64,000 bases of DNA, from NCBI GenBank assembly GCA_032433595.1, contig JASWJB010000018.1, positions 205,426 through 269,425 on the forward strand. Reading direction: 5' to 3'. This stretch comes from Conoideocrella luteorostrata (lineage: Eukaryota; Ascomycota; Sordariomycetes; Hypocreales; Clavicipitaceae). This document shows, piece by piece, positions 38,878 to 64,000 of this stretch. A program made the translations under genes and the position numbers. The notes beneath the pieces were generated by a model. It did not search any database. It saw only the letters and a list, made by a program, of their open reading frames with translations, and was not told the origin of the DNA. Within the stretch, counting starts at the first letter, position 1; every line of letters starts with the position of its first letter.

Positions 38878-39025
38878 CTGGCTATCAACTAGTCAATTGA
38901 CTTCAATATAATCCCGTTGAACCCAACAGTCACCCCACCTGCGAAAGCGCTCTCCGTCCAAACTTTAAAGTCATACGTCTCGTATAAATTTAGTTATAAA
39001 TCGCTATTCACTGGTAAGAAGAAGG

Positions 39026-39460
39026 ATGTTATCAGTCCAAGCGTTTAATATAGGGATTATTTGTGCACTGCAGATAGAGTTTGATGCAGTGACCAGCATA
39101 TTTGATTCTCACTACCAAGCTCCCCTTGGACTAACTCCCAGGCACGACATTACTTTTGTCTACGGTCGCGTGTACACTCATAATGTCGTCGCTGTCTGTC
39201 TACCATCAGGGATGACCGGCACCATCTCTGCCGCCTCTGCAATCAATCAGATGATGATCAGTTTCCCAAACATGACAGTTTCATTGATGGTTGGAATCGG
39301 CGGCGGTGTCCCCAGCGAACAAAACGATATTCGGCTGGGTGATATTGCGGTGAGTACGCCGGGCAACCAATTTGGAGGCGTAATACAGTCATATCCAGCG
39401 GGAAAAACTAAAAGCTCCACTTCCTTTCTTGAACGAGATCCTGAGCTCTGGCCGCTTTAA
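39026..39460 (+). pseudogene. truncated nucleoside-phosphorylase domain of a fungal NLR
   Basis: The 144-residue frame begins FNIGIICALQIEFDAVTSIF, which is the start of the PNP_UDP domain used as N-terminal domain in many ascomycete NLRs; VGIGGGVPSEQNDIRLGDIA (about 92-111) is the family's phosphate/nucleoside-binding segment. It stops after DPELWPL, about half way through the domain. No NB-ARC, NACHT or repeat domain follows; instead a GC-rich repeat and then the retroelement block begin. I read it as the remnant of an NLR gene cut by rearrangement. Confidence 0.7.
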
Positions 39461-39794
39461 CCTGCTTAGCCCCTGAGCCGCCCTAAGCAACCCTGAGCCG
39501 CCCTGAGCCGCTCTGAGCAATCCTGAGCAATCCTGAGCTGCTTTGACTTATGCAATTTATGCCAAGTTCTAATAGTACACGTGGCTATTGCTTTGCGGCT
39601 TCGCTGACCCGCTGAAGTTAGATAACGGGATATCGGATCACTAATCACAATCATAGAATAGCGCAATTACGTTAGAGAAATTGTCCTTATCGGCTTTGCG
39701 GCTAGCTGCCTAGATTTAGCTGGGGCGCAGCATAAGGCTTACTTATTTTGGCTTCACGCGCATTATCGAAGAAATTTATAGAAGGCTCTAGATA
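39461..39794. repeat. CCCTGAGCCG tandem repeat and spacer
   Basis: From about 39468 to 39545 the sequence is a run of CCCTGAGCCG / CCTGAGCAAT units, about eight in all. It starts directly after the truncated NLR frame. The remainder to the outer LTR shows nothing recognisable. Confidence 0.7.
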
Positions 39795-39799
39795 CTATA

Positions 39800-54849: not shown

Positions 54850-57421
54850 ACATCAGGTTTGTGTTATGTTTACCTCTTAAGCGACAGTATATAGAATAAT
54901 AAACTTTATGCATAGTTTAGAAACTTTTACTATAATAAGAATAATTTAAGAGTATAAAGCGCATTGCTATTTAACCCTCTATAGGAATAGATTTAAGTAG
55001 TTAGTGTGTTACGAGTGAATAGCTACAGATGTCTAATAAGTGGAATTATCCTTTATTTCTGTTATAAGTAAGCAGATATGGATGTCTGAATGCAGTGGAA
55101 TTGTCCTTTTATTCTATCTAATTAACGAGGAATTAGACCTCTTTATATATTTGAATTTAATCTAGAAATTCCCACATTTTCTGTAACCAGAAGTTGTCTC
55201 ACAATATCTCCAGGGTTCAGAATCTGTAATTAGCTCACTGTGATCCGTAGCATGCTCTGTTTGGTAGCTTCTATTTAACTTAAAGGAATGTGACAATTAT
55301 TTATGTCTTTTAGGATGCTTCTTCCAGATTTATTTTATTCTATTGCTTCCTGTAAGGTGCTGGCGCGAGCAGCGCGTGTGCCTTATAAATAGATGTAAGG
55401 TATAATAAAAGCAGTCGCTTGTATTAGCAGATATTTTTGGTCCACTGGGGTAATAAGCACACCTTCTTGTTATCTTACACTTTCGGCGATATTGTGTGCT
55501 TCCGGTAGCATTAAACGTTTCTGGCAGCGATATGCATTTCCTCACGATATTCTGTGACATAGTGGCTATAGAACTAAGCAATATAACGGATTATTTAGAT
55601 ATAAATTAGAAGGATAAAATAATCCTAAGCTTTTACACTAAAATATTAATTAATTTATTGGCCTAAAACATATACCTGCGCCACACATGCACTGGTGTTT
55701 AACACATAACTAGTGATAGTAACTTCAATTCTGTAAGAGGCTTTAATTAAGCCTAAATAAATTATAGACCTCTTGTACGTGTCGAGATTAAATGGTCTAT
55801 TAATTAAGTCGTAGAAAAAAGAGCGCGGTTGCACGTCTAATGGAAAGAATAGGCATAATCGCACAAGGACAGCGCTCTTGCCAAGGACACGATTTAATTC
55901 TATGGGAGCAAGCAATTCGATTCGTTAACGATGCCTATGCGTGTGCCTAATAACCATCTAAGCGAGCGGGCAGCGGCTAATCTTAGAGATAATCCAAAAG
56001 ATCTTGACTAAACTAGTCGAGTTTAAACTTCACGTGAGACTGCATCCACCACCGTTGTTGGAATCCTTTCGCTAAGCACAATAAGGAGCACGGAGCGAGT
56101 CACGTGGTCACCTTTTGGCCACGCTATTTATATGGCGATATCGAGCCTTCCACCTTGACTTGCTTTCTTCTTAGATAGATAATTATGAATACATTGTTTT
56201 GCCCTTTTAATGCAGATAATCTAGATCACCTGCATAGCACCCCTGTGTAACCCACAACCATAGAAGATCATTTTCGCCCGCACACTAAGTAAGAGACTAC
56301 TGTTTTGGCATTTTAACTATTTTATTAATAGTCTAATATAAGGATATAATTAAATATTAATGTCGGGTTGCTAACTATTATAACGAATACTAGTCTAGAC
56401 CTTTAGCTAAACTATGCGTTAAAATAATGCTACTATTAACAAATATTATGCTTAAAGTCTATTAAGTATTCTTAAAAAAACACTTATTACTTATAGCAAG
56501 AAATTATTAAAATCTTAACCCTTTCTAATAGCTAGCTAAAATAGTAGTTACTAGACTTTCTCTGCATGTATTAAAATTAATTAAATTTATTAACATTGTG
56601 AGGACTTAGGATCCTCTAGCGTGTGTTTAAGTCCTAAACAGTACCACATAACGGATCGAAACTGTGAATGCTTATGAACAATGAAAGGAGTGCTAGAAAT
56701 AGCATAGTAGCTATTTATTGCTTATCCTCTAGCAAGAGCCTGCCCCACGATAGCCACAAACCGCCGAAAGAGGTAGAAGCGACTTTTGGACACTTGCTCA
56801 ACCTTGTGGATAAACTTCAACATAGTAGTGAGCATTCAACTACTGTAAAAGGCGAAATGGATGTCCATATTTTGTTAAATAAGGATAATAGCGGACAGCC
56901 AAGTTTGGACGTCACTGTGGCTCTGTACAGGCGGGGATGTACCGCTACTGCCTAAACAGATATCAAATCTAGCCTACCCGCAAAAGAACAAAGCGAATGT
57001 CCCCAACTTAGCAAGATAGAAGCTTTCGATGCACTACGTATCCACCAGATTTGTCTCCATACATTTATTTTAGGCTTCTATTCTCCCGAAAAAAACCCCC
57101 GAAAAAAAAAACTTAGTGTTTAGAACCGAGAGTTTTGCATGCCAAACCTCATAAGCCCTGGTCGTCATCCCCATCCTTCAGAGTGTACTAAGTATAGCGT
57201 TCTTCTTACTACTGCCCGCGTGGCTTTCAAATAGTCACATTGTCTTTGCATGGCACATTGTCCCGGGCGCCCGCCTCTATCTCAAAGTGACAAACACCAC
57301 ACTAAACCATTACTTTAGGTTTCTTATTCAAATATACACGTTTGATTTGACCTAAATATGTCCTAAATCGACCAGCACGATAAGCAATCTACCTCCTGAA
57401 CCTTCTAGGACAAAGCCAAGG
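54850..57421. other. intergenic with dispersed repeats
   Basis: Positions about 55010-55200 hold two partial copies of the GTGGAATTGTCC family, and 55.65-56.26 kb holds the inverted match to 14.17-14.42 kb. The region 56290-56640 is strongly AT-rich. A 95-codon open frame at 56668-56955 has no recognisable feature. From 57100 on it is the 3' flank of the NLR gene. No gene is supported. Confidence 0.5.
55650..56260 (-). repeat. inverted copy of the 14.2-kb repeat
   Basis: Read on the minus strand it follows 14165-14420 through GTGGGTTACACAGGG, CAAGGTGGAAGGCTCGATAT, AAAAGGTGACCACGTGAC and ATTGTGCTT. Similarity is about 80% by eye. The two copies are 41 kb apart, on either side of the metabolite cluster and retroelements. 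Confidence 0.6.
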
Positions 57422-60210
57422 TCAAGCTTCCCAGCTAGCTAAAGTCTCAACAGACGACAAGTAATCTGGGTGACTAGTGCCTAGTTTATCTCTCCTTGAT
57501 TGGATGCATTGCCTCATTAACTTAATAGCTTCCTCGTTGCGCCCTAAACTCCAATATGTCCATGCTAGGTTATTCATACTCATTAGCGTAGAGGGATGAT
57601 CTTGCCCTAGTTTCGTCTTGCGAGTCTCCATCACTTGCACATGTAGCTCTTCTGCCGCCTTCCACCGGCCTTGCTTCCTGTATGTCGATGCCAAGTTAGC
57701 CATGCTCGTTAGCGTATCGGGATGATCCTGCCCTAGTTTCGTCTTGCTAGTCTCCATCACTTGCACCTGTAGCTCTTCTGCCGCCTCCCACAGGCCTTGC
57801 TTCCAAAATGTCGATGCCAAGTTAGCCATGCTCGTTAGCGTATCGGGATGATCCTGCCCTAGTTTCGTCTTGCGAGTCTCCATCACTTGCACCTGTAGCT
57901 CTTCTGCCGCCTCCCACAGGCCTTGCTTCCAAAATGTCGATGCTAAGTTAGCCATGCTCGTTAGCGTATCGGGATGATCCTGCCCTAGTTTCGTCTTGCG
58001 AGTCTCCATCACTTGCACCTCTAGCTCTTCTGCCGCCTCCCACCGGCCTTGCTTCCTAAATGTCGATGCCAAGTTGACCATGCTCGTTAGCGTATCAGGA
58101 TGATCCTGCCCTAGTTTCGTCTTGCTAGTCTCCATCACTTGCACCTGTAGCTCTTCTGCCGCCTCCCACCGGCCTTGCTTCCAAAATGTCGATGCCAAGT
58201 TGGCCATGCTCGTTAGCGTAGAGGGATAATGTTGCCCTAGTTTCGTCTTGCGAGTCTCCATCACTTGCACCTCTAGCTCTTCTGCCGCCTTCCACCGACC
58301 TTGCTTCCAAAATGTCGTTGCCAAGTTGGCCATGCTCGTTAGCGTATCGGGATGATCCTGCCCTAGTTTCTTCTTGCGAGTCTCCATCACTTGCACCTCT
58401 AGCTGTTCCGCCTCACTCCATCGGCCTCTTAGGCCATATGCTAACGCTACCATTGCTAACGAATTCACTACATCGTTATGCTGCTTGTCAAATGTCTTCT
58501 TTCTTGCTTTCAAGGCCTTTACCGATAGGTCCTCCGCTTCAATTCCTTTTCCCATTTTAAGGGCATACCATGCCGCCTTGTATAAAACTGTAGCCCACTC
58601 TTTCATTGACTCCTTAGAAACTGGCCGTTGTGCAGCTACTAATTGTGCATGCGGGAACAGTACCTGGCATTCGGTCCAGTTCTCGTATTCCCCCCCTGGA
58701 AGCTCTTCGCAGAGCCTTACAAGAAATCGGTGCCTCCATTCCTCGTATACCTCGTGAGCTCTGAGCCATTCAAGCATAGCCAGCTGAACTAATCTATGCA
58801 TTTCGAAGCTCTTTTTATCGTCATTGGCAATGATGAAGGAGAAGTCCCGCAACATGACGATGTCGCTTTCGAACCGGTCGTTACTACTATAATTGGAATG
58901 CACTTCCGTTGAATCACTGTCGCAACTGCTCTTAGCCTCATCGCTTGTACTTTCACCGTCATCGATGATATTATTGTTTTCATCTTCTTCGGCAGAATAT
59001 GCTCGGTCCTGCGAATCTTTGGTATCATAACCATGCGTGCGTTCGTCCTGGCTGCGCAGCAGCATATCGGGAATGCCTTGTCGATCGCAGAAGCTCATCA
59101 GTGACAGCAAGTCGGCCGCGGATGGTTTGGTCTCGCGGATGTAGTCAAATGATATTTGCCATGTAATGAGTATTGAATTCTTGGCTTCCCGATCTCGAAG
59201 GAGTCCTTCACCGTCGTGGCCTAGTAAGCCAGTTTTTCTCTTATCACTGTGACGAAATTCATCTAAGTACTTCTGCACAGAGGACCGCGGGCGCCTCTGC
59301 TGGATGAAGGCTGCCGCTTGAACTATGGCAAGTGGCATAAACTCAAGCGCTGAAGCAAGCTCTAACATGCAAGCCTTATCATCACTTCGGCCAAGCATAT
59401 TAGAAAACAGCTGCAAAGCCTCTTCCTTACTCATCGGCTTGATCTCAATAATATCGTTGTAATGAACCAGATTCCGCGCCGCACGTCTACTTCGTGACGT
59501 GATTAGAACAGATCCATGCTGGCATGGAGGGATGTACGATTTTAGATGTCTCGAATTTGCAGCCTCTGTTGTCATTACCCCTGCTTCAATGCTAGGGCCG
59601 GGCGACGTTAAGAAATTCGCATTATCTACGTTGTCAAGAATAATAACCCAAGGCCCTTTTCTCTCGTCTCGAAGCCAGTCATGCACAAGCTGGAAGATAT
59701 TGGCTTTCGGGTCTTGCCGCCCAGGAACCTTAATACATTCTGCAATTTCGCGAAAACTCTGCTCAAACCGAGCGGCATTACTTGCGTGGACCCAAAAAAC
59801 CCACTTTGCGGGTGATTGTTCTCGGGCTTGGTATGCGTGTTCGATAGCGAGTTGTGATTTACTAAACGGATTAGCGACTTTTGGAATAATTCTGCCTGTT
59901 ATACAGCTATAAACCCACCCGACACCGCCAAGGCCGACGAGTGCAGTCCACGACCCTGGCTCGCAACAATTATGCTTGATCTGGTGAGATGTTTCTCCTC
60001 GATTCACGAAGTTTCTATCTCGACCGAATGGAATCAGGATCGATGGATGTGGCGGCGTTTCTGGTCGCTCTGTTCGATCATCAGCGACAGAGGCATAGCG
60101 TTTGCGTTATGTGGGAACCTACCTGGAGTGGAGTAGTTGATGCTGAAGGGTCCGTGGTTTATCCCCACTTGAAGCCCAGTGTTAGGACCGTCGAACGTGA
60201 TGGTGTTCAT
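57422..60210 (-). CDS. NLR: N-terminal amyloid motif, NB-ARC, TPR repeats
   Basis: Three exons, complement(57422..59861, 59919..60060, 60123..60210), give 889 residues. Exon 1 starts MNTITFDGPNTGLQVG, a HET-s-related-type amyloid motif. Splicing gives the linker PFGRDRNFV common before fungal NB-ARC domains, and intron 2 splits the P-loop, which becomes GLGGVGKSQLA (about 71-81). Walker B is WVIILDNVD (about 148-156), followed by GSVLITSRS and FMPLAIVQAAAF. An acidic Ser/Asp/Glu insertion (about 355-415) interrupts the winged-helix part. The C-terminal third holds eight TPR units of 42 residues, six nearly identical (MANLASTFWKQGRWEAAEEL type). Such NLRs sense a signal, oligomerise and template the matching motif on a partner effector. 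The effector gene lies 1.05 kb upstream on the same strand. Confidence 0.9.
57560..58440. repeat. 126-bp tandem repeats encoding TPR units
   Basis: Roughly seven consecutive 126-bp units inside the NLR coding region, each containing CCTAGTTTCGTCTTGC and ATCACTTGCAC. Identity between central units is very high, suggesting recent duplication or gene conversion. Confidence 0.9.
60124..60210 (-). other. amyloid signalling motif of the NLR (exon 1)
   Basis: Residues 4-20 read ITFDGPNTGLQVGINHG. Alignment with the effector's C-terminal motif gives 10 identical positions of 17, including the central NxGLQxG core. Confidence 0.8.
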
Positions 60211-61260
60211 GGTGCCTAGAGATAACGTTTGGATAATCGTGAGTTTTTACTCTTAGTTTGAAGTCAAGATGTGTCCGAGGGCTTGAAGATGGAGCAGATG
60301 ATGGCTGCATGTGATTCAGCTGGGCTTGAGTGTCAGCCTGGTTGACCGCCTCACTCTTTTTTCGCCACCTGCCTTATTCTGCCGCGCTGTGTACCCCGGT
60401 CTGATCTGATCCATCTAGCACGCATGTCAGCGGCTCGCGATAGGTCATGCCTTATCCTCCTTTGCTTACCGCAATGATCGAATTTGCCAATCTAATAAGT
60501 CGTGAGGGTCCCCTCGTCGCATTCATCCGCGTTCCGTTTTGCGAGACGGATGCCATACCAATAGCGAAAGTTTCACCCGAACAAGAAGGAACAACAGAGC
60601 ATATGCCATTGGGAAATTAGGCAGCCATACTATTGTCCTTGTGTCGGCTCCTGCGATGGCACAAGGAATGCTGCATTAATGGCTGCCTGCGTTGAGCTTT
60701 GCAATATTGAAGATCCAGATTTAGCCTTTTTTTTCAGTCAGCAGCGGTACTTTAATAACTACAACATTCCTATTACAGTACACTACTGTGCTGTGACTGT
60801 GCTCGACGTTTGGACAAGTACTGTGTGAGGTCCGCTCTCTGCTGCCTGGGCAATGTCCGAATTTGGCTTAGATGTATCGCACTTTCCAGGATCACATTTG
60901 AACAGTGAGATATTGTGTATTGACAACCCTGTTTTTTTACATAGGAAAATACACGGTGAGTGCTCGTTTTTATCTTCGTGAGCGTAGGGTCACGTGTCTT
61001 GTGAGGTCCGAGTATTTAATCCATATGAAACATACATAATACACGCGCATGTCTCTTACTTCTTATGCGCATGGGTTCCTGAATCGCAACAAGATATCTG
61101 TCTTCCGGGAAAGAGGCCCCGGGACAAATCATACATTATTTGACGGACTTGAGTTTTAACTAGTGCTTTCTTTAAGGTCATACATATTCGCTTTGTTTCT
61201 CTGCCCTACATGTGCTTTCTAAGCTAGCCATTATGTACAAATCAGAAATACTAGAAGAGC
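60211..61260. other. intergenic between NLR and effector
   Basis: About 1.05 kb holding the NLR promoter and the effector 3' flank. A poly-T run is near 60729. No gene is seen. Confidence 0.45.
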
Positions 61261-62585
61261 CTAGTTTCTTCCAAATGTCACTCCATGGAGGCCGCCGCTG
61301 ATAGTCCCTGCTTGAAGGCCTGAATTCTGCCCCCTAAACGTTATAATATCTGTGTGTCTTTGGTGACCTTCTGGGTTCGGTGTTGTAGAAATAGACCGGT
61401 TACAGGTAATGCTCTCAACTCCCTTCATAAATTCTTTAAGTGTTGACACCAATCGTTGAAAGCCGTCATTGTCGGGAGAATTGAACTTATGTAGCATATT
61501 GTGCCTAACATCCAAGGGAATTCTTGTAACGCCCTGAAGGCAGGCAGAGTCTTCCATGACAACCTGGATATATTTTAATTAGTTGGAATAAGCTCCAGAC
61601 AACTCCTATATATCGTTGAAGCCCAAACTTACAATTCCATGACCGTTTGCATCGAGTTTTTTAGCATAATCCTTTGGTAATCGTTTTATTTTGGCGGAGA
61701 AATTCGTGTGACGAGTTTCGTAGAAGCATACTACACCGAATTTGGAGTTTTTGTGACGAATCATTTCACAAAACCTTTGAACAAGGCTGTCCAATGGGCC
61801 GGGGCAATCTGGGCTTCCCCTTCTAAGATATTGTATCAGCTCTTGAGTATATTCGCCTTCCGATTCGATCGCAGCGGCAATGCGCATATCTGCAGCGGTA
61901 TATCCGGTCCCCCAGCTGCCTTGGAAAGGTGTACCGAGAAACGTCACGCCAATTGTGCAATCTAATATCGGGCGGTATTTTTCCCTCCCTGGATGAAACT
62001 CATCGGCAGCTCGAAGAAGAGCCTAATCACAAATTACCATAATTAATATTCCATTGTGAAAGATCAGTACAATTGGAAATATGCCGGGCTACAATAGCCA
62101 ACTATACTAAATAGTCACGAGCAAAGAAGAAAGAATAACCATACCTGAGCTAGGAGCAAACCGCTAAAACAAGACGCGATAAATATTATAGGATATTGGA
62201 GCCGTTGCTTCCTCAGAGGTCAGCCACGGTATAGCTATGTAGCACCAGTGAGCCTTACCTTTTGTTCTCGTTCTACATAGAGTCGGTCAAGGAGTGTATC
62301 TGCATATCCGATGAATCTGTCACTAGAAGCGTTCTTATCGTAGCTTGCGTTCCAGTCGTAAGTCAAGATGCGCGAGTTGGGTATGAAGTGAGGCAACATA
62401 TGGTTGTCTCTTAGCCAGTGGACATCTCCAGAATATGGATCATCAGCTTGCTTCCAGGCAATCCATGTAGCTGGTGACTGTGCATCCAGACCGTGCATTA
62501 CTATGATGCTATCATTATAAGCGATTTGAAGAGGAGTCGACGTTTCGAGAGTCTCACTCAACGATTGGATCCGTTGCGCTGACAA
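61261..62585 (-). CDS. SesB-like alpha/beta-hydrolase effector with C-terminal amyloid motif
   Basis: Supported exons are complement(61261..61563, 61633..62022, 62145..62207, 62259..about 62585). The 5' end is unresolved: a second frame (62554-62922) overlaps it, and no ATG is clear in frame, so the start given is only the limit of the supported frame. The domain reads IIVMHGLDAQSPATWIAW, then ILTYDWNA, then IFIASCFSGLLLAQ at the nucleophile elbow, TFLGTPFQGS, CFYETRH and IPLDVRHNML with the likely catalytic His. The nucleophile position reads Cys rather than Ser. The last 29 residues contain ITFRGQNSGLQAGTISG. SesB-type proteins are effectors in fungal cell-death and incompatibility systems, switched on when a partner NLR templates the motif. 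Confidence 0.8.
61264..61350 (-). other. amyloid signalling motif of the effector (C terminus)
   Basis: The final segment contains ITFRGQNSGLQAGTISG and ends VTFGRN. It matches the motif in NLR exon 1, in the reciprocal C-terminal position expected of an effector. Confidence 0.8.
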
Positions 62586-63184
62586 GCTTAGGATCTGGGT
62601 ACATCTGGCTAAGTCCGAGAGATCGGGAATTGCAGGAGACGGGCGGCTTCTCTTCCCCGACGGGTCTACCGGTGAGGTATGAGAGTGCTGAGCCGAAAAG
62701 CTCCATGTTTTTAGATGGGGCTAGAGCGAGTGGCAAGATTGAGTAACAGTTGGCGGGGAAGTTAAATATATAAGGGATTATATATTCCATTTTCATCAGA
62801 ACAGGGCGGTCGTCAGACGGACATGGCTGTGCAAACAACCCCGCTTTAGGCAGCAAAAATTTGTGGTAGTCGATGGAGCCCCTCACTAGTAACTTTATCC
62901 ACTTGTCAATCGGCCATCCCATTCTGCCTTGCTGTGGCTTCCCATTTTATCTGGACTGTAGTTGTCATGAACTTGCAAAGTTCCCCCAAGGTTGCACCAG
63001 AAGAAGGGTGCAGTTTGCACAGCCTAGTGACCTGGCTGTCCCGACTCATGTGTGGTGTTCTTTACAAGGAGCATCCTTGATATATATGCTGAAGAGTCTC
63101 GTGAAACGATAGGCTTCTTTAGATTATCCTCAGATCCGCATTCCACTTGATTTGGCGACTGTAACTTCAGGACTGAACAATAAA
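62586..63184. promoter_or_regulatory. divergent upstream region, effector / HET gene
   Basis: Carries the unresolved 5' end of the effector gene and the promoter of the HET gene. The minus-strand frame 62554-62922 contains GLSQMYPDPKLV, which could be the N-terminal exon of the effector if an intron or a shift joins it. Confidence 0.4.
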
Positions 63185-63871
63185 ATGGATATCCTCCGGC
63201 GTCTTCCGTACGCTCAGTTACTACCAGGCCATATACGTCTTTTTCGTATCGTAGACAACGCATCGGTGGCAGATGAAGGGTCACTAGAAGTCGTGTCACT
63301 GGAAGAAGCTCCTGCCTATTACGCTCTGAGTCACTCTTGGGGAACACAAACCCAAAACGAAACAATTCGTGTCGACGGCTATTTGCTCTACGTCACGTCG
63401 GACCTGGCGGCCGGGATCCGGAGGTTTCGAGAACTTAGTGATAAGAGATGCAGCTTATTAAGTCCGCCAATTAGATACATTTGGATTGATCGCCTCTGCA
63501 TCGACCAAGATGACCCCACGGAGCGGTCATCCCAGGTTGCTCTTATGACAAAGATCTATTCACGTTCGATTAGAACTCTGATTTGGCTCGGGCATGAATA
63601 TTCTTCCAGTGCTGCTGCGTGGCAGCTGGTAGATCATATCTACAACGTCTGCCGATCGCAAAATCCGACAGCGAAAACCTTCGACGATATCAAGGTTAAT
63701 ATCTATTTAGAATCATTCCATAATGCGTCCGGGTTGCCCAATTGGAACCACTACGCCTGGGCACAGCTAAGGAGGTTAATGAATCTTCGCTGGTTCTCCA
63801 GGATTTGGGTTATTCAAGAAGTGGTGCTATCACCACAAGATCCCATTCTTATTCACGGATCATGCCTTTAG
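63185..63871 (+). pseudogene. HET-domain protein, truncated at a telomere-type repeat
   Basis: From ATG 63185 the frame gives 228 residues holding most of a HET (PF06985) domain: YYALSHSWGTQTQNETIRV, then RYIWIDRLCIDQDD, then SRSIRTLIWLGHE and WFSRIWVIQEVVLS. HET proteins mediate heterokaryon incompatibility and cell death and usually continue for several hundred residues more. Here the reading ends at HGSCL with a TAG that lies inside the first TTAGGG unit at 63868. An upstream frame start at 63152 uses no ATG-supported context. It is next to an NLR/effector pair, so this end of the window is an immunity cluster. Confidence 0.82.
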
Positions 63872-63890
63872 GGTTAGGGTTGGGATAGGG
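63867..63890 (+). repeat. interstitial TTAGGG telomere-type repeat
   Basis: The block reads TTTAGGGTTAGGG followed by TTGGGATAGGG, so two perfect and two variant telomere units. It is followed by non-telomeric sequence to the window edge. Confidence 0.8.
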
Positions 63891-64000
63891 TCTATTTTGC
63901 TAAAGAAAGCTAATCTGCTCGCCTAGTCTAATCTAATCCCTTATTTACATAAGCTATCTAGAGAGAGGAGAGGTTCTGTACAAAGGAAAAGAGAGCTAGC
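63891..64000. other. unassigned right edge
   Basis: 110 bp after the telomere-type block, without resemblance to a HET-protein continuation in any frame. Nothing else seen. Confidence 0.4.

Follow-up and report, generated by a model that had tools for sequence, protein, structure and literature searches.

A putative PP-type amyloid signalling pair beside a broken phosphorylase gene in Conoideocrella luteorostrata

A 64,000-nucleotide stretch of the Conoideocrella luteorostrata genome (contig JASWJB010000018.1, positions 205,426 to 269,425; hereafter the window, whose right end is the end of the contig) carries a gene for a NOD-like receptor (NLR) and, adjacent to it with 1,050 bp between and also on the minus strand, a gene for a putative SesB-type hydrolase (SBP). 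The two proteins have in common a short motif, which lies at the N-terminus of the receptor (ITFDGPNTGLQVGINHG) and at the C-terminus of the hydrolase (ITFRGQNSGLQAGTISG), and between the genes stands the broken start of a PNP_UDP phosphorylase gene. The motif 17-mers (minus strand, 60201-60151 in the receptor and 61344-61294 in the effector) agree at 10 of 17 positions with a BLOSUM62 score of 47, a value not reached once when the effector peptide was shuffled 200,000 times; among the 55,825 stop-free 17-mers in the six-frame translation of the window they are each other's best non-self match, the next-best scores being 30 for the receptor and 24 for the effector. An earlier sequence-only reading of this DNA had pointed to the same identity, which the shuffles place beyond chance, and to the position of the motif at opposite ends of neighbouring genes on one strand, which the gene models bear out; its assignment of the receptor role to an NLR and of the effector role to a putative hydrolase of SesB type is likewise supported.

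Both segments, FDGPNTGLQVGINHGPF in the receptor and FRGQNSGLQAGTISGGL in the effector, fit the consensus of the PP motif, a pseudopalindrome centred on Q (FxGx(x)NxGLQLxGxNxGxL), which was defined in 2012 on HeLo, Goodbye-HeLo and STAND proteins and on sesB homologs (PMC3321046). The departures are V or A in place of the second L and, in the effector, also I for the second N. The Pfam profile PF17046 (Ses_B) describes this motif, "PP (misnamed SesB)" in the words of PMC12261475, and it gives a weak match to both segments, in each case below threshold. The fit to the consensus together with this weak match in both segments makes the assignment as an amyloid signalling pair well founded. The suggestion of a possibly undescribed motif subfamily did not hold, since the published PP consensus fits, and neither did the likeness to HET-s and sigma, whose motifs belong to different families. 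Membership of HET-s/HRAM was rejected, as no HET-s family is among the Pfam matches and the effector is a hydrolase, and so was membership of sigma, a motif of about 40 residues with A/B sub-motifs in three repeats (PMC3321046): here there is a single motif of about 20 residues, and no sigma family is among the Pfam matches. A search of the PDB by sequence returned nothing for either motif peptide. An NB-ARC-TPR receptor (PNT1) and a SesB-type hydrolase (SBP), both with PP, are described from Chaetomium globosum (PMC7885112, PMC5485727), so that an NLR and an SBP with a common PP motif is an already known kind of pair; the window pair is predicted to be a new member of this PNT1/SBP type.

The window NLR has the PNT1-type order of PP, NB-ARC and TPR (Table 1). 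Its splice models rest on the comparison of four paralogous NLRs rather than on transcripts, and the four (in the window and on contigs C109, C251 and C140 of the same genome) follow one exon plan, in which the motif exon (88-100 nt) is succeeded by a phase-1 intron (52-53 nt), a second exon (151 nt) and an intron in the P-loop (50-58 nt), the second acceptor in C109 having been located by homology. This common plan supports exon 1, and the predicted separation of the motif in an exon of 29 codons agrees with the sequence-only reading. The first intron, which had been placed at 60061-60122, is present, but its lower end differs, the model giving 60122-60070; the second (59918-59862) was absent from that reading. 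The long frame of the NLR runs through this second intron, the removal of which yields TALVGLGGVGKSQLA and a protein of 892 residues, and the Pfam NB-ARC profile scores 20.6 bits on the unspliced frame but 37.4 on residues 1-575 of the spliced protein (cut-off 23.5). The sequence-only reading expected routine gene callers to overlook so short an exon, which may be so, and a miss of this type has been reported for het-eN (PMC3321046). The TPR repeats are near-identical as DNA, a feature described as commoner in NLRs with prion-forming domains (PMC4986451).

The SBP model comprises five exons and 380 residues, with a start at 62706, outside the range 57422..62585 considered in the sequence-only reading; its first exon is the least certain, because four junctions maintain the frame. 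According to tblastn, SBP is homologous to frames elsewhere in the genome, with which its HGL, elbow and TPF columns align, and one such relative (L034) passes the profile of DUF676, a putative serine esterase (24.4 bits, cut-off 20.3).

Table 1. Modelled features of the receptor, the hydrolase and the phosphorylase remnant (window coordinates)
Feature	Position	Strand	Remarks
NLR exon 1	60123..60210	-	29 codons + 1 base; holds the receptor PP motif
NLR intron 1	60070..60122	-	53 nt, GT-AG (GTAGGT...CAG), phase 1; same site, 52-53 nt in three paralogs
NLR exon 2	59919..60069	-	151 nt; 151 nt in 4/4 paralogs
NLR intron 2	59862..59918	-	57 nt, within the P-loop; splicing out gives GGVGKSQ
NLR exon 3	57422..59861	-	remainder of NB-ARC, DUF7779, TPR repeats, stop
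TPR array	57550..58427	-	126-bp unit, 7 copies, 92% matches; TPR_10 Pfam match
SBP exon 1	62670..62706	-	least certain exon
SBP exon 2	62259..62608	-	gene model
SBP exon 3	62145..62207	-	nucleophile-elbow position FIASCFSG
SBP exon 4	61633..62022	-	gene model
SBP exon 5	61261..61563	-	C-terminal PP motif
Broken PNP_UDP start	60450..60748	+	about the first 90-100 codons, start set by alignment; head-to-head with NLR, between NLR and SBP

What is new lies in the surroundings of the pair, namely three sister NLR/PNP_UDP loci and the phosphorylase remnant. Genome-wide searches covered the assembly of 46.4 Mb in 620 contigs. Sixty matches to the window NB-ARC region were obtained, four of them close: the window itself, C140 (75%), C251 (73%) and C109 (69%). 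Head-to-head with the NLRs of C109, C251 and C140 lie open frames of 427, 419 and 468 codons, respectively, each of which has a PP-type tail at its end; the C109 frame passes PNP_UDP_1 (41.2 bits), and a genome search with PF01048 recovers all three. Adjacent pairs with the motif N-terminal on the receptor and C-terminal on the effector thus number four in the genome. With PF17046 at E up to 10 there are seven matches, to the window receptor, both C109 partners (the receptor exceeding the cut-off with 23.4 bits), the C251 receptor, the C8 phosphorylase tail, and C196 (a low-complexity frame) and C169, the last two of which are taken as chance; the C251 effector tail, like both partners on C140, was identified by reading the loci, not from this list. 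Genome searches with motif peptides (8, 2, 4 and 4 matches) found receptors, phosphorylase-type tails and SBP only. Such tails occur at six places: C109, C140, C251, C8, C326 (at a contig edge) and C59 (with an internal stop), those of C326 and C59 being known from the motif-peptide matches only. The C8 phosphorylase (L012:8688-10000) has a broken frame and no NLR in the surrounding 18 kb. C251 and C140 are close sisters, and comparison of the NLRs separates the window NLR, the C109 NLR and the C251/C140 pair without ordering the three. The next-closest NLR (C361, 55%, with a stop) showed no PP motif in 431 bases. As to HELLP-type effectors, none of the ten loci of about 3 kb around the ten PF17111 matches had the motif by search expression, HeLo (PF14479) not having been searched.

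In the literature, immune cell death is described as involving an action of PNP_UDP proteins on ATP (PMC12881547), UDP-phosphorylase is named with sigma-type motifs (PMC3321046), and PP effectors are said to be both pore-forming and enzymatic, the enzyme being unnamed (PMC9815663). A PNP_UDP effector with PP is mentioned neither in the portions available of PMC3321046, PMC9815663, PMC5485727, PMC7885112, PMC8086366, PMC12261475, PMC12881547, PMC7889193, PMC4986451 and PMC12258605, supplements excluded, nor in the titles and abstracts of the further papers that the literature searches listed; given this scope, it may be in print already.

The homology of the window to the sister loci runs from 60207 across the common upstream region and ends near 60750. 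Over 60207-60748, the DNA alignment with C140 has 374 of 613 columns identical (score 324, against 62.5 for the best of 200 shuffles) and that with C251 366 of 630 (289.5, against 68). On the plus strand, tblastn finds the phosphorylase start in pieces, with the C251 protein at 60453-60699 (E 6e-8) and with that of C140 at 60290-60699 (E 9e-9), a match that begins ahead of the start codon; the best piece in the region for the C109 phosphorylase has an E of only 0.06. The remnant contains many gaps of frame-breaking lengths, and the three plus frames of 60290-60713, a stretch that is partly upstream sequence, have 5, 7 and 5 stops. Repeat-induced mutation is not indicated (TA/AT 0.44 over 60290-60720). 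SBP comes next after the remnant and is convergent to it. Since the older, broken gene occupies the head-to-head place, the locus formerly had the phosphorylase of its sisters; a phosphorylase effector has thus gone from this locus, which today carries a hydrolase, either through a swap or through the loss of one of two effectors. The remnant suggests that the receptor changed the enzyme with which it works. Elsewhere in the window (38969-39799), a PNP_UDP-like fragment on the plus strand, 38% identical to the C251 phosphorylase, is followed by 416 bp that are 93% identical to C251:56248-56653.

The scenario without a swap, in which an ancestral PP receptor had two effectors (PNP_UDP and SBP), the phosphorylase later disappearing at the window locus and the hydrolase at its sisters, comes close to an even chance without reaching it. 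PP clusters with two effectors are in print, PNT1 of C. globosum being accompanied by HELLP and SBP (PMC7885112, PMC5485727), and the window has a broken phosphorylase beside an intact hydrolase; however, tblastn with SBP on the sister-locus stretches gave motif-level matches only and no hydrolase remnant, with C140 covered for about 0.5 kb past the phosphorylase.

A swap of effectors that left the amyloid channel in place can be proposed only tentatively: an NLR/PNP_UDP pair signalling by PP would have lost its phosphorylase, and a hydrolase domain of the type that precedes NACHT receptors would have joined a PP tail from a phosphorylase. Ranked by identity, the genome's best match to SBP beyond the window is on C15 (tblastn, two pieces at 60% and 70%); its frame continues into DUF7069 and is without a PP tail, and a 40% relative (C5) is followed by a NACHT frame; these relatives look like hydrolase domains ahead of NACHT receptors. 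The last 84 coding nucleotides of SBP have 59, 55, 57 and 47 identities to the tails of C140, C251, C109 and C8, and SBP terminates in VTFGRN compared to LTFGRK, LTFGGK, LTFGGK and LKFGGK, respectively. A graft of a phosphorylase tail onto the hydrolase is possible, and an ancestral receptor with two effectors is equally compatible. It was also considered whether the 3' end of a phosphorylase gene had been captured as DNA: blastn matches C140 at 62 of 84 positions and extends 14 nt beyond the stop. This is not counted here, because taken by itself the 3' flank does not clearly exceed shuffled sequence (of 500 shuffles, its similarity is reached by 39 for C140, 491 for C251, 472 for C109 and 20 for C8). 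If the swap is true, one sensor moved from a nucleotide-cleaving to a lipase-like output.

It may be asked whether the four loci form separate channels or one network, in which the window receptor also seeds the sister phosphorylase tails and the sister receptors seed SBP. By whole-motif scores, the window receptor has 47 with the C109 phosphorylase tail against 44 with its own partner, and SBP has 51 with the C109 receptor against 44 with its own, so the score matrix gives no support to cluster-specific co-evolution or strict pairing. On the other hand, the identity of the window receptor to its own partner is marginally greater (10 versus 9 of 22), and GLQ occurs in both window partners only, GFQ or RFQ being found in the other three receptors and four phosphorylase tails compared, which hints at separate channels. 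We regard the single network as a possible, albeit rather unlikely, arrangement. In C251 (L011) and C140 (L058), both partners depart from the PP core at one matching position, the second Gly of GxQxG, where the receptor has Lys and the effector Trp. The variants GLQ/GLQ, GFQ/GFQ and GFQAK/GFQAW provide a natural test of the determinants of seeding specificity.

Taking the pair and its inferred mechanism jointly, we consider it highly probable that the two proteins make up a PNT1/SBP-like amyloid signalosome of PP type. Ligand binding by the near-identical TPR repeats would cause the NB-ARC receptor to oligomerise; its clustered N-terminal PP motifs would adopt an amyloid fold similar to that of RHIM, the motif of mammalian necroptosis that PP resembles (PMC7885112); this fold would template the C-terminal PP motif of the hydrolase, and the latter would thereby join an active complex with a harmful or lethal effect on the cell. 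The sequence itself shows the anatomy of the genes, the fit of the motif, the P-loop restored by splicing, the repeat array, the common exon plan and the broken phosphorylase; that the receptor oligomerises, that amyloid forms and is templated, that the enzyme is active and that the cell dies is what we infer for this pair. PP has been studied experimentally in Podospora and Chaetomium (PMC7885112).

Several observations weigh against this assignment. PF17046 scores 18.1 bits on the receptor and 14.2 on the effector, under its cut-off of 23.2, and the SBP tail is absent from the genome search with this profile at E up to 10. The nucleotide identity of exon 1 lies within 3 points of that of intron 1 in four of the six paralog comparisons, nonsynonymous divergence (dN) of the window NLR is 0.33-0.42 in exon 1 versus 0.08-0.16 in the first 80 codons of exon 3, and in exon 1 it equals synonymous divergence (dS) in the comparison with C251 (0.42 each, 29 codons); the similarity of exon 1 to intron 1 and this equality mean that selection on the motif is not clearly demonstrated. 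Spliced SBP has no hydrolase-family match in Pfam or NCBIfam, and PDB searches with its sequence and with the hydrolase profile were empty. In SesB-type hydrolases the nucleophile elbow has Ser in GHSxGG; that of SBP is ASCFSG. Among 16 related loci besides SBP, the elbow is IASCLGG in four (L026, L028, L029, L036) and His-Ser in three (L034, L038, L041), a fourth His-Ser elbow (L037), outside the scan expression, having been seen separately; the Cys is therefore common to a subfamily.

These data also bear on the idea that the pair is decaying, with a non-functional receptor or hydrolase near the repeat-rich end of a contig and next to a broken gene. The adjoining phosphorylase is broken, repeats are close by, SBP alone has SG after the elbow Cys where the four Cys-elbow relatives have GG, and dN equals dS for exon 1 in one comparison, but the frames of the NLR and the hydrolase are open across all modelled exons and the P-loop is intact, so we judge decay improbable. 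A resemblance of the motifs through chance or composition, with amyloid not involved, is hardly credible, for although both motifs are under the Pfam cut-off, the shuffles never reach their score, the published consensus is fitted, and the motif lies at the same protein ends in three further pairs.

The HELLP-SBP-PNT1 cluster of C. globosum (PMC7885112, PMC5485727) resembles the window in the N-terminal PP on an NB-ARC-TPR receptor and the C-terminal PP on a nearby putative lipase, a comparison made by description and not by sequence; unlike that cluster, the window has a broken PNP_UDP gene between receptor and hydrolase, and no HELLP was found here. HELLP/PNT1 of Podospora anserina (PMC7885112) likewise combines PP, an NB-ARC-TPR receptor and two adjoining genes, but its effector is a HeLo-like pore-former, whereas that of the window is a hydrolase. 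The sesA/sesB/het-eN system of Nectria haematococca (PMC3321046) has a SesB-type effector and an NLR with its N-terminal motif spliced off, although the motif is sigma, of about 40 residues with threefold sub-repeats, rather than a single PP. The three sister loci recall PUASM and HRAM/NLR12 (PMC9815663) in their PNP_UDP effectors with a C-terminal amyloid motif common to NLRs; however, the PUASM (FxGxGxQxxGxGxF) and HRAM/NLR12 motifs are not PP. Owing to the resemblance of PP to RHIM, fungal PP pairs can serve as models for the way in which amyloid tags connect sensors with cell-killing proteins. In a genome with four paralogous PP receptors, of which three neighbour a phosphorylase and the fourth a hydrolase and a phosphorylase remnant, effector exchange behind a constant amyloid link could be studied within a single organism.

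Outside the pair, an Rfam search of the window gave no matches. A segment of about 2 kb (54863-56842) is 90% identical to DNA beside the C251 cluster, shorter copies of which flank that cluster on both sides. Near the contig end, a HET-domain frame (PF06985, 98.3 bits; 63113-64000) terminates in TTAGGGTTAGGG (63868). The short GT-AG introns, like the presence of NLR and HET genes, fit a filamentous ascomycete. At the other end (1082-34951), the window contains a highly reducing polyketide synthase and monooxygenase, P450, MFS, dehydrogenase and Diels-Alderase N-terminal domains, which likely constitute a biosynthetic cluster.

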